DNA of 64,000 nt. Source: Pseudanabaena frigida. GTDB taxonomy: Bacteria > Cyanobacteriota > Cyanobacteriia > Pseudanabaenales > Pseudanabaenaceae. Every line of letters begins with the position of its first letter. Position 1 is the stretch's first letter. Of this stretch, positions 4,365 through 7,267 are shown piece after piece. The translations under genes were made by a program, and so were the position numbers. Under the pieces are notes generated by a model, which ran no database searches, was not told where the DNA came from, and was given only the letters and a program-made list of their open reading frames with translations. The stretch lies in NCBI GenBank assembly GCA_003242085.1, contig QBML01000001.1:1-64000 (forward strand), given 5' to 3'.

Positions 4365-4417
4365 AAACCCAAATAAATAGAGGCGGCGCTTCGCGCCGCC
4401 TCTATTTATTTGGGTTT
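4365..4417. repeat. 25-bp perfect palindrome, TTC loop
   Basis: Arms 4365-4389 and 4393-4417 pair exactly, with core GGCGGCGC-TTC. Its sequence is nearly identical to the palindrome at 45824-45878, including AAACCC ends and the flanking CAAAACTTT-ATTG, so the two are copies of one repeat. Confidence 0.85.
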
Positions 4418-4448
4418 AATGTTCCAAACAAAACTTTTATTGCCATAC

Positions 4449-4540
4449 TTACAGAGCTTTGTGCTCAAACCCAAACCGAGAAAAAACTTAAAAGCGTTGC
4501 AAAGCAACGCTTTTAAGTTTTTTCTCGGTAACTACTGTAA
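4449..4540. repeat. Dispersed palindromic element, TTACAG type (copy 2)
   Basis: Ends TTACAGAGCTTTG and AACTACTGTAA enclose a 26-bp perfect hairpin (4475-4500 and 4504-4529, loop AAA). The outer sequence matches the element at 3170-3275 whereas the arms are unrelated. Confidence 0.75.
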
Positions 4541-4578: not shown

Positions 4579-4670
4579 TGTAGTACGTGTAGTATAAATG
4601 TAGTACAGCGTAGTTCAAGCGCGTAGAACGCCTAGCCTGATCGCTACTACAAGTACTACTCAAGTAGTTG
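4579..4670. promoter_or_regulatory. Cluster of TGTAGTAY sites upstream of the tRNA-like array
   Basis: TGTAGTAC at 4579-4586, TGTAGTAT at 4588-4595 and TGTAGTAC at 4599-4606 are direct repeats spaced 9 and 11 bp. Opposite-strand relatives follow: CTACTACA at 4644-4651 and GTACTACT at 4653-4660. The same octamer is clustered on the upstream side of the second tRNA array (18021-18049) and forms a palindrome before the RHH gene (19803-19820). An operator is the simplest reading; binding is inferred. Confidence 0.6.
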
Positions 4671-4689: not shown

Positions 4690-4815
4690 GATGCAGCCTC
4701 GCAAACTGCTGAAATTCCTTTATGCATTGACTTGCCTTTATGGGCTGAAGCATTCAGGGTTATTGCTACCAACAGATGCTGCTTGTTCGCAAGTGGCATC
4801 TATCCACAAATCAGA
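4690..4815 (+). ncRNA. Possible degenerate fifth tRNA-like element
   Basis: AGGGTTATTG at 4756-4765 matches the AGGGTTATCG core of the four elements downstream. As in those, it is preceded by a short GC hairpin (GCC-TTTAT-GGGC) and followed by an anticodon-loop-like CTACCAA. A 10-bp stem with loop GTTCGC occupies the place of the variable or T arm. I cannot close an acceptor stem, so the ends are approximate and this may be a decayed copy. Confidence 0.35.
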
Positions 4816-4868
4816 ACTCCTAATAATTGTAATTTTGCCGTAAGCAAAATTACAATTCGATAAACTAT

Positions 4869-4992
4869 TGACGGGTAGCTCAGTGGTAGAGCATTGAAAA
4901 CATCCTTTTTCGTCACTTACCTGCAAAGGTCGCAGATTTAGGGTTATCGCCTGAAACGCCAAGTGTCGGGGGTTCGAGTCCCTCTCCGTCAA
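4869..4992 (+). tRNA. Interrupted tRNA-Phe(GAA)-like gene with 52-nt insertion (element A)
   Basis: Acceptor strands 4869-4875 and 4985-4991 pair over 7 bp. The D arm is 4878-4892, the T arm GGGGG-TTCGAGT-CCCTC is 4968-4984, and A4992 is the discriminator. Between D and T arms are 75 nt instead of about 23. Removing 4897-4948 joins TTG to GC, giving TTGGC-CTGAAAC-GCCAA: a perfect 5-bp anticodon stem, anticodon GAA, a 5-nt variable loop and a canonical 72-nt tRNA. The insertion contains an ACCT-GCAA-AGGT hairpin (4919-4930) and ends AGGGTTATC. No known bacterial intron class fits 52 nt. It may be a spliced tRNA or a tRNA-mimicking Y-type RNA. Confidence 0.65.
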
Positions 4993-5020
4993 TTGGGAGT
5001 TTGATTTTGAGCAATGTGTT

Positions 5021-5180
5021 GGAGAGATAGTTATGCGATCGCAATCGAAACTTCTCTTTACCCTAGATTACTATGTGGCGCTTTGCGCCATGAAGTAATT
5101 AAAGGGACGAATTGGCGAGGGTTATCGCTTTGGTTGCATCACTTCCATGAGGTGATTGGGTTCAATTCCCATCCCTTCCT
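5021..5180 (+). ncRNA. Interrupted tRNA-like RNA, degenerate (element B)
   Basis: The T arm (TTCAATT loop, 5161-5167), an 8-bp variable-arm hairpin (5138-5156) and AGGGTTATCG (5118-5127) followed by TTTGGTT, a proline-type anticodon loop, are clear. The acceptor pairs only about 5 of 7 positions with 5021-5027. The candidate D loop carries a HIP1 octamer (GCGATCGC). The GNRA hairpin of the other copies is replaced by a palindrome with GGCGC-TTT-GCGCC. The 5' half is uncertain. Confidence 0.4.
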
Positions 5181-5249
5181 AAACTAGATGTTTTGCCTGC
5201 TGGTTGCCATCTCTCCTTAACAAAGCCCAAAATCAAAATTCCAATCTTG

Positions 5250-5370
5250 GGGTGGATAGTTCAACTGGTAGAACACACTTTTGCCCGCAAGGGACGCAGA
5301 CTCAGGGTTATCGCTTCTAACGATCACACCCCTTTGTCGCGAGATGTGGGTTCGAGTCCCATTCCACCCC
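5250..5370 (+). ncRNA. Interrupted tRNA-like RNA (element C)
   Basis: GGGTGGA (5250-5256) pairs perfectly with TCCACCC (5363-5369). The D arm GTTC/GAAC is 5259-5274 and the T arm with TTCGAGT is 5346-5362. The central part has CCC-GCAA-GGG (5284-5293), then CGCAGA and AGGGTTATCG (5304-5313), followed by CTTCTAA inside an ATCG/CGAT hairpin, which would be a UCU anticodon loop. About 25 nt separate that loop from the T stem, so it is class II-like or rearranged. I cannot restore a full anticodon stem by simple excision. Confidence 0.5.
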
Positions 5371-5427
5371 CTCTAAAAGTTTTTAGCTGTTAGCAATTAG
5401 CAGTCAGCTTTTAGTTGTTCAAATTCT

Positions 5428-5564
5428 CGGCAGGTGGCGAAAATTGGTAAACGCACTTGAAAAACAACCTTTATAGAATCCCTTGTCTGCAAAGACCGAA
5501 CTGTAGAGGGTTATCGGGTTCAAACAGTCGAAAGATTTTGTAGGTTCGAGTCCTACCCTGCCGA
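5428..5564 (+). ncRNA. Interrupted tRNA-like RNA, class II (element D)
   Basis: CGGCAGG (5428-5434) pairs with CCTGCCG (5557-5563). The D arm is leucine-like (GCG/CGC, loop with GGTA), the T arm is 5540-5556, and a variable-arm hairpin with GAAA loop lies just before it. The insertion begins AAAACAACCTTT at 5461, like AAAACATCCTTT in element A. It contains GTCT-GCAA-AGAC (5485-5496) and ends AGGGTTATC (5507-5515). TTCAAAC with a possible CAA anticodon follows, but no clean spliced anticodon stem is evident. It ends 66 bp before the Ro60 gene. Confidence 0.5.
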
Positions 5565-5630
5565 TTCCTTCTCTTTGGTCGAGGCGAAGGAAGTTCTCTT
5601 TACTTTTTCCCTTACGGGACGGAGAATGTC

Positions 5631-7235
5631 ATGTCTTATAAATTTTTATTCCAGAAACCTAAAGGTACACCTCAAACTCAAGCGATCGCAGGTCGTGAAA
5701 CGGAAATGATCCAAGGGCGATCGGGTGGCTTTGCCTTTGATGCGGGTATCTGGCGCATGTTGCGTCGTTGCTTGCTGATTGGTACGGCTCAAAGCACCTA
5801 CTACGCTGGCAAGCATGAACTGTCCGCCGATTTCATCGATACGGTACAGAAATGTGTCGCCGAAGATGCCGATCGCGTGAAGAGCGAAATTCTCTATGCT
5901 AGCGATGGTCGTGCGGTGAATAACAGCGCTCCTATTCTGGCTCTAGTCTTGCTATCGATGGGCGACAGCCAAGCGGCGAAACGGAACTTTATGGAAATAT
6001 TTCCGCAAGTTGTCCGTACAGGTAGCCATTTCCATGAATGGATGAACTACACCAAGTCCATGCGTGGCTTCGGTAAAGTCATTCGTGAAAGCGGTAAGGC
6101 ATGGCTCTCCAATCCCGATACCAAGGCGCTCGCCTATCAATTGCTGAAGTACCAACAACGGCAAGGCTTCTCGCACCGTGATGCGTTGCGTTTGTTTCAC
6201 GTTAAGCCTGAAACCGACGATCAACAAGCGCTCTATCAATGGGTGGTCAAGGGTTGGGATGAACTTCCTTCGCAAGTACCTTCGGGAGCACTAGCGCAAA
6301 TCTGGTGGTATGAATGGCTGAAGCGCAATCCAGACAAGACCCATGAAGCGATCGCAAAGGGTAAACTCACCCATGAAATGGCGGCTCCCATCGGACAGAT
6401 GGATATGCGTGCATGGCAGTTGCTCTTTAACGAAATGCCCATTGGTGCATTGTTGCGAAACCTTGGCTCCTTGACGGAACTTGGTGTCTTGACGGCAAAA
6501 AACAAGGATAACTTGAAGCGTGTTGCCAATGTATTGAACAATCGCGATCGCCTGAAAAAGGGACGCATTCACCCCATTGATGTTTTGAAAGCCCTCAAGA
6601 CCTATCATTCTGGTGGTGCGCTCGGACGTAGCCAAAAGACTTGGGAACCAATTCCTCGCATTGTCGATATTCTGGAAACTGCTCTGGAAATGTCCTTCGA
6701 TGCGATCGCGCCTACGGGTGCGACTTTCCTCCATGCGATCGATGTGTCGGGTTCGATGGCTTACTACACCGTTAGTTCCATCGGCTTGACCTGCTGCGAA
6801 ATCGCGGCAACGATGGCTTTGGCAACGGTAAAGGCAGAAACCAACTATGCGATCCGTGGATTTGCGACCGACTTCCGCGATTTGGGAATTACCAAAAAGG
6901 ATTCCTTCACATCGGCAATGCAGAAAGCATCGAACCAAAACTTCGGTGGTACAGATGCGTCGGTGGCTTACGATTGGGCGATTAAGAATAAGTTCTATGC
7001 GGATGTGTTCTGCTTCTGGACTGATTCCGAATCTTGGGCAGGTCGTCGTCATCCTAGTGAAGCGTTGGCTGAATATCGCCGCAAGGTGAACGCTAATGCG
7101 AAGGCAATCTATGTGACCTTGGCTCCCTATAAGCTTTCGCTAGTCGATCCCAAAGATCCTAATTCTTGGGATATGGGAGGTTTCGATCCTGCAATGCCCC
7201 GTGCAATCCAAATGGTAGCAATGGGTGAAGTCTAA
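5631..7235 (+). CDS. rsr: Ro60-type TROVE domain protein
   Basis: Ring-shaped RNA-binding protein homologous to human Ro60 and Deinococcus Rsr. The N-terminal two thirds (about 1-350) is the helical TROVE domain (GRETEMIQGRSGGFAFDAG near the start). The C-terminal von Willebrand A domain has the MIDAS motif DVSGSM at 371-376, a Thr in FGGTDAS and the Asp of FWTDSE at 465. Family members bind misfolded RNAs and Y RNAs and can gate exonucleases; bacterial YrlA Y RNAs mimic tRNA. Here the gene directly follows four tRNA-like RNAs, probably its ligands or substrates. Length 534 residues is normal. No RtcB/RtcA RNA-repair genes are adjacent. The 3' end shares a bidirectional terminator with the next gene. 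Confidence 0.92.
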   Translation: MSYKFLFQKPKGTPQTQAIAGRETEMIQGRSGGFAFDAGIWRMLRRCLLIGTAQSTYYAGKHELSADFIDTVQKCVAEDADRVKSEILYASDGRAVNNSAPILALVLLSMGDSQAAKRNFMEIFPQVVRTGSHFHEWMNYTKSMRGFGKVIRESGKAWLSNPDTKALAYQLLKYQQRQGFSHRDALRLFHVKPETDDQQALYQWVVKGWDELPSQVPSGALAQIWWYEWLKRNPDKTHEAIAKGKLTHEMAAPIGQMDMRAWQLLFNEMPIGALLRNLGSLTELGVLTAKNKDNLKRVANVLNNRDRLKKGRIHPIDVLKALKTYHSGGALGRSQKTWEPIPRIVDILETALEMSFDAIAPTGATFLHAIDVSGSMAYYTVSSIGLTCCEIAATMALATVKAETNYAIRGFATDFRDLGITKKDSFTSAMQKASNQNFGGTDASVAYDWAIKNKFYADVFCFWTDSESWAGRRHPSEALAEYRRKVNANAKAIYVTLAPYKLSLVDPKDPNSWDMGGFDPAMPRAIQMVAMGEV

Positions 7236-7266
7236 AAAAAGGAGTCGCAAAGCGACTCCTTTTTTT
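7234..7266. terminator. Bidirectional terminator between convergent genes
   Basis: Arms 7234-7248 and 7252-7266 (15 bp, loop AAA) have A7 on one side and T7 on the other, so the hairpin works as a Rho-independent terminator in both directions. It includes the last bases of the Ro60 stop codon. Confidence 0.85.
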
Positions 7267-7267
7267 G

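Follow-up and report, generated by a model that had tools for sequence, protein, structure and literature searches.

Very probable circularly permuted Y RNAs with tRNA-like modules upstream of the Ro60 gene of the cyanobacterium Pseudanabaena frigida

The RNA array and the Ro60 gene

The first 64,000 nucleotides of contig QBML01000001.1 of the cyanobacterium Pseudanabaena frigida (GCA_003242085.1), hereafter called the window, hold a gene for Ro60 (Rsr), an RNA quality-control protein whose partner Y RNAs occur in organisms ranging from bacteria to man, and, upstream of it, five RNA-like elements (4690-5563) on the Ro60-sense strand. The gene (5631-7235, + strand), which an initial annotation made from the letters alone had placed after the array, was confirmed as Ro60 by its vWA/TROVE domain pair (Pfam PF25045, E 6.5e-39, with PF05731, E 1.8e-16) and by homology of its product to the solved structures 2nvo, 9nen and 1yvp, the similarity to Rsr of Deinococcus radiodurans (2nvo) reaching E 1.5e-77. 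The protein is 94-98% identical to Pseudanabaena proteins.

All five elements lie on the + strand. The motif AGGGTTATCG, reported earlier as shared, does occur at 4940, 5118, 5304 and 5507, and the GCAA hairpins noted in three copies are present as described. Outside the array the motif has 3 further sites in the genome and is not enriched there, because a reversed control pattern gave counts of 13 and 8.

D arm, T arm and a 7-bp acceptor stem are clear in the elements at 4869-4991, 5428-5563 and 5250-5370. Elements 2 (4869-4991) and 5 (5428-5563) belong to class A, and R1, a covariance model of class A searched in whole genomes, scored them at 105.6 bits (E 1.6e-24) and 93.5 bits (E 2.1e-21), respectively, both copies being part of its training alignment. 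Element 2 reads as a permuted hybrid of Y RNA and tRNA, and element 5 has a tRNA-Leu-like scaffold with a long variable arm. Element 4 (5250-5370) represents class B, in which the putative Ro60 hairpin, strand 1, a loop and strand 2 of the inserted domain stand in one tRNA scaffold. It is the only element of the array called by Rfam, as a tRNA (42.7 bits) with a 64-nt gap in the anticodon region, and ARAGORN called none of the five as tRNA. Element 3 (5021-5179; R1 17.8 bits, E 0.08) is a variant whose acceptor stem is imperfect and whose probable Ro60 stem bears a long hairpin where the GCAA tetraloop is expected; it is kept at 87-98% in more than 20 Pseudanabaena loci. Element 1 (4690-4802; R1 29.4 bits, E 8e-5) combines an apparent Y-type core with weak tRNA-like arms. 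Four copies of one type and a decayed fifth had been listed initially. All five elements are real, and 4869 and 5428 are indeed both class A, but 5250 has the other strand order, 5021 deviates as described above and 4690, although its tRNA arms are weak, is not decayed: over 20 Pseudanabaena loci keep it at about 87-94%. This conservation rules out a pseudogene at 4690.

Conserved structure and linkage to Ro60

The proposed structure of class A was evaluated in A1, an alignment of 53 diverse copies, and that of class B in the alignment A4. In A1, 95.4% of cells were paired, double changes were seen in 24 of the 31 pairs, and none of the five measures was reached by any of 500 shuffles; the check for covariation in the stems of the insertion, proposed in the initial annotation, was thus positive. 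The acceptor helix was paired in 100% of cells with all 7 of its pairs covarying, and these are therefore maintained structured RNAs. Helices 2 and 5 (D and T arms) were paired in 92.9% and 99.6% of cells, and helix 4, the probable Ro60 stem, in 96.2%. In helix 3, the upper stem formed by strand 2 with AGGGTT, 89.9% of cells were paired, thereby bearing out the predicted pairing of the 5' AAC..CC of the insertion with its 3' GGGTT.

Class A copies run in the order acceptor strand, D arm, strand 2 (AACATCC-TTGTTCA), UUGCC-[GNRA]-GGCCGA, strand 1 (GAATGAGGGUUAUCG), anticodon-type region, T arm and acceptor strand. The loop of the small hairpin is GNRA in 40/53 and another short loop in the rest, with 3-5 nt closing the Ro60 stem. 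In element 2, the 3' strand of the upper stem (strand 2, AACATCC, + strand, 4899-4908) pairs with AGGGTT in helix 3, and the probable Ro60-binding stem of helix 4, UUACC-UGCAAA-GGUCGCA, closed by its GCAA loop, follows at 4917-4934 (+). The 5' strand of the upper stem (strand 1, 4940-4949, +) carries GGUUAUC, invariant in the A1 columns, where the nematode sbRNA consensus (RF01656) has UGGGUUAUC. In class B the same small hairpin leads straight into strand 1, and a loop and strand 2 come next; in the consensus fold of this class a single base bulges from the stem (GG-N-CG against UGCC).

In the tRNA half, the landmarks G18-G19, T8 and the T loop are nearly invariant in A1. The Y domain interrupts the anticodon arm, entering the stem of that arm on its 5' side. 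After UUAUC, a hairpin of 3 bp with a 7-nt loop was found in 27/68 non-redundant class A copies (control loop sizes average 3.0), with U33 in 26/27, a purine at 37 in 26/27 and many different anticodons. None of the class B copies tested had an intact anticodon hairpin. The complete acceptor stem and the position of the extra domain at the anticodon had thus been described correctly, with the qualification that 5021 is imperfect and the arms of 4690 are weak; the anticodon loop, however, is often kept and not replaced. The variable region is longer in copies whose D arm is of the tRNA-Leu type (p 1e-8). Given the varied anticodons and D-arm types, the scaffolds therefore derive from, or imitate, several tRNA types. 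CCA is encoded at 74-76 in 25/197 copies. The window genome has 44 further tRNA matches, which cover the ordinary isotypes, and decoding therefore does not need the array RNAs.

We surveyed 80 cyanobacterial Ro60 loci. In nearly all of them the Ro60-sense strand carries 1-6 GGGTTAT sites in the roughly 1.6 kb preceding the gene, and the motif is rare elsewhere in these loci or on the opposite strand. Of 251 motif places that were delimited, 197 had a detectable acceptor and T stem. The median spacer between copies was 62 nt. R1 had matches in 22/23 relatives with Ro60 and in 0/35 without it (n=58; Fisher p 4e-15), and in a phylum sample of 292 genomes in 24/27 with Ro60 and 0/265 without (Fisher p 3e-32), the p-values overstating independence because the genomes are related. 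The repeated linkage to TROVE genes, the other proposed check, was therefore also found with a covariance model. The sole R1-negative relative with Ro60 (G044) has a Ro60 fragment only (199 residues matched, on a 3.5-kb contig), and the three R1-negative Ro60 genomes of the phylum sample encode distant Ro60 proteins, 32-35% identical, with ordinary Y RNA forms just upstream of Ro60 by a reading by eye (L158, L159 and L160).

Some loci depart from the usual arrangement. An extra RNA copy without a D arm lies 3' of Ro60 in one locus (L031, 7681-7787), and GGGTTAT near +1653 in many Nostoc loci suggests that a downstream copy is common there. In the laboratory strain Picosynechococcus PCC 7002 the array (L113, 3542-3943) and Ro60 are carried on plasmid pAQ7.

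Likeness to Y RNAs in a permuted order

The insertion looks like a Y RNA, having a Ro60-type stem with one bulged base and a GGGUUAUC upper stem. The nematode sbRNA consensus, GGUCCGGaGucgaUGGGUUAUC ... UUCCCAucgaCACCAACUUGACCG, holds the modules GGUCCGG..UGGGUUAUC...CAACUUGACCG, and the stem at 4917-4934 of element 2 resembles the GGUCCG/UUGACC of the Y RNA/sbRNA consensus. Vertebrate Y RNAs have the same GGUC-CG and UUGACC strands with a bulged C. The cyanobacterial core contains both sbRNA-type strands in swapped order and joined by a tetraloop, (AAC..UCC..CUUGCC)-GNRA-(GGCCGAAGAAUGAGGGUUAUC). Since the same two strands stand in opposite order, the GCAA hairpin would be the counterpart of the Ro60-binding stem, and AGGGUUAUCG that of the upper stem. 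The extra domain, which had been taken as new, thus resembles the Y RNA itself in circularly permuted order.

Canonical RNAs of the YrlA type (loci L118, L121, L125, L126 and L122) begin with the Ro60 stem and continue through strand 1, the T arm, the loop-closed acceptor, the D arm and strand 2 back to the Ro60 stem, so that cyanobacterial and canonical RNAs share one cyclic order, which runs from the D arm through strand 2, the Ro60 stem, strand 1 and the T arm to the acceptor. At the Ro60 locus of actinophage Cashline (L118) the RNA matches Rfam YrlA (E 3.4e-8) as well as the nematode sbRNA ceN72-3, a Y RNA homologue (E 9e-5). All rotations of 24 class A RNAs were aligned to ten canonical Y RNAs. 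The mean score was 188 when the RNAs were cut at the tetraloop and 95 in the natural order, and a shuffled core with the same cut gave 146 and a flat profile; the best cut fell <=6 nt from the loop in 76% of pairs. Among the ten canonical RNAs, that of Vibrio phage BONAISHI aligned best with the rotated cyanobacterial RNAs (232). R1 in turn gave alignments that span the junction between neighbouring canonical Y RNAs in tandem and preserve the core pairs (Nonomuraea, E 8e-11; Cashline, E 2e-9), because a tandem-array junction reproduces the permuted order. This suggests that the permutation arose through duplication in tandem, after which the boundary of the unit shifted. The deep-branching genome G096, from another class of the phylum, has RNAs near Ro60 that read as canonical and as permuted, the canonical assignment being made by eye; its permuted RNAs (69.2 and 47.5 bits) sit within a tRNA gene cluster 2.5 kb away.

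The canonical register, from a T arm to the next D arm, was also considered for the cyanobacterial arrays. Three observations disfavour it: within each D-to-T unit the acceptor stem is 100% paired and covaries, single-unit loci exist (L038), and 3-5 nt close the Ro60 stem.

Several results weigh against a Y RNA identity. In a set of 20 relatives that included the window genome, nothing scored over the gathering cut-off of Rfam YrlA (RF02553, 69 bits). R2, a 60-position model of the de-permuted core, found no significant canonical Y RNA in 12 non-cyanobacterial loci with filters on or off, and the homology of the core therefore rests on the consensus motif and the alignment of whole molecules. 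For that circular alignment the boundaries of the canonical RNAs were set by eye, and the sequences compared (ten canonical, 24 cyanobacterial) cannot be counted as independent. In class A two adjacent positions are possible for the bulged base, and folding the window copies one by one gives a modest gain over shuffles (z -0.9 to -2.1).

Comparison with known systems helps in placing these RNAs. YrlA-type RNAs (RF02553; Salmonella, mycobacteria, actinophages) are alike in lying next to Ro60, in the bulged Ro60-type stem, the GGUUAYC motif and the D and T arms; they are often tandem, and can be aligned to the cyanobacterial RNAs after rotation. They differ in that their own 5' and 3' ends pair as the Ro60 stem, a pairing by which YrlA is defined (PMC8394870), and in that their acceptor is loop-closed, whereas in the cyanobacterial RNAs the stem is closed and the ends probably lie at the acceptor, sometimes with an encoded CCA. 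As two features that define YrlA, ends at the Ro60 stem and the Rfam score, are lacking, we file the array RNAs as a permuted variant of bacterial Y RNA and not as YrlA. Metazoan Y RNAs and nematode sbRNAs (RF00019, RF01656) share the GGUC-CG..GGGUUAUC strand, its UUGACC partner and the bulged C of the sbRNA consensus, but they have no tRNA module and end at the Ro60 stem, and the cyanobacterial strands stand in swapped order. The Y RNA of Deinococcus (RF01053) is likewise a partner RNA of Ro60 (Rsr), acting as the scaffold between Rsr and PNPase (PMC4726728); it differs in topology and has no match above the Rfam cut-off to the window array. In Rfam 15, only the tRNA family (RF00005) scored above its cut-off for elements in the loci scanned. 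Like tRNAs, including intron-bearing ones, the array RNAs have normally sized acceptor, D and T arms, and many copies also have an anticodon loop, but the insertion breaks the anticodon stem, ARAGORN is silent on them and decoding has no need of them.

On the evidence of structure, covariation, linkage and sequence-level permutation, we consider it very probable that the array RNAs are Y RNAs of the cyanobacterial Ro60, circularly permuted and docking tRNA-like modules onto it. Covariation and TROVE linkage support the option of a new Y RNA class raised in the initial annotation, in the form of a permuted variant of bacterial Y RNA. Literature searches on cyanobacterial or permuted Y RNAs returned nothing relevant; Chen et al. 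2014 (RNA 20:1715), who reportedly found probable Y RNAs close to Ro60 in numerous bacteria and phages, lay outside their coverage, and earlier notice is possible.

Two further Ro60 loci are of note. Apparently canonical Y RNAs stand beside the Ro60 of the jumbo phage BONAISHI (L122, 1930-2420), and in G096 (L157) Ro60 lies beside a large tRNA gene cluster that holds, in addition to the Y RNA forms, an HNH-endonuclease-like reading frame.

Alternative explanations, proposed working and surroundings

TROVE gene transcripts rose dramatically in Chlorogloeopsis fritschii PCC 9212 under erythromycin (PMC6424891), and TROVE and RtcB rose together in coculture (log2 4.5 and 3.5; PMC11423583). These data, which concern the TROVE gene and not the RNAs, suggest a response to translation or RNA damage. 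The joint induction would also fit tRNA decoys that absorb anticodon nucleases or other tRNA-attacking enzymes, with Ro60 only stabilising them, as would the variety of scaffolds and anticodons within an array; YrlA has been proposed to inhibit a tRNA nuclease competitively (PMC7790460). Many copies, including all class B copies tested, lack an intact anticodon hairpin, however, and we regard decoys as unlikely.

Just before the Ro60 start codon and overlapping the Shine-Dalgarno sequence, the leader carries a hairpin of the general form UUUGCC-N4-GGCYGGGAG, which appears to mimic the Ro60 stem; in the window it is UUUCCC-UUAC-GGGACGGAG over the Shine-Dalgarno sequence (5604-5624, +). A loose pattern for it matched 58/62 distinct leaders as against 4.3% of random windows, and translational self-control by Ro60 would be the natural inference. 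This mimic, and the position of the elements, always Ro60-sense and close upstream, could mean that they are mainly cis-acting parts of the ro60 mRNA leader, as operator or attenuator, and not free RNAs. That is very unlikely, as the full covarying acceptor stems and the 62-nt median spacer suggest separate processed units and copies also occur 3' of ro60 (L031) or in a tRNA cluster 2.5 kb off (G096).

It is highly improbable that the elements are decoding tRNAs split by a small new intron or insertion and spliced to working tRNAs. The complete acceptor, D and T arms, the anticodon-type 7-nt loop with U33 and purine 37 in about 40% of class A copies and the CCA encoded in 25/197 copies agree with such an origin, but the 44 further tRNA matches of the genome cover the ordinary isotypes, the insertion occurs only with Ro60 and resembles Y RNA, and class B is without an anticodon hairpin. 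A known intron, of group I, group II or another kind, was rejected because Rfam intron families gave no match. A reading as untranscribed remains of a mobile element that targets tRNAs, which multiple scaffolds and variable copy number might suggest, can practically be dismissed, being contradicted by compensatory changes throughout, by the strict Ro60 linkage and by the conservation of the supposedly decayed copies.

If the elements are permuted Y RNAs, the molecule is open at the acceptor stem and would therefore have the ends of a real tRNA. The array and ro60 may be made as one transcript that tRNA-processing enzymes cut, after which Ro60 would bind the closed stem, as motif and linkage indicate. 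By analogy with YrlA, which recruits PNPase (PMC8394870), the tRNA-like module could gate Ro60 or recruit tRNA-handling enzymes or a nuclease, and the several scaffolds in an array would present several kinds of mimic. Surplus Ro60 might bind the stem copy over its own ribosome-binding site and shut its translation until more Y RNA is made. In its widest form the proposal is tentative and may well be wrong: a Y RNA turned inside out by permutation in a tandem array would have gained true tRNA ends, tRNA-like processing, CCA-tailing and perhaps charging, each array would be a panel of mimics for Ro60 as a sensor or bait for damage to the translation machinery, and Ro60 translation would be controlled by the stem copy in its mRNA.

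Were the permuted Y RNA identity true, Ro60 would gain its RNA partners across much of a phylum where existing RNA family models yield none above cut-off, and a Y RNA that can be circularly permuted with both functional ends kept would be a natural test of which parts matter. The purpose of the tRNA module, the making of a Y RNA through the tRNA pathway and the self-control of Ro60 by a stem mimic would become directly testable in a cyanobacterium amenable to experiment. A minimal closed Ro60-binding hairpin would be useful because Ro60 and Y RNAs are major components of human autoantigens.

On the 3' side of the Ro60 gene a terminator-like hairpin with a T run was read directly from the sequence (7234-7267, +). 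RtcB is encoded in the window genome, on a different contig from the array. Three direct GTAGTA repeats stand 5' of the array (4580-4605, +), as a putative promoter-proximal operator. The triple repeat occurs once in the genome (a reversed control pattern matched 4 times) and is kept in other Pseudanabaena; counting related ACTACA repeats, found behind TTGACA upstream of arrays in other genera, such repeats were present in 21/81 loci, and they are a possible operator for some regulator. Two long near-perfect palindromes lie shortly 5' of the array, at 4370-4430 (AAACCCAAATAAATAGAGGCGGCGC...) and 4474-4530 (ACCGAGAAAAAACTTAAAAGCGTTGC...).
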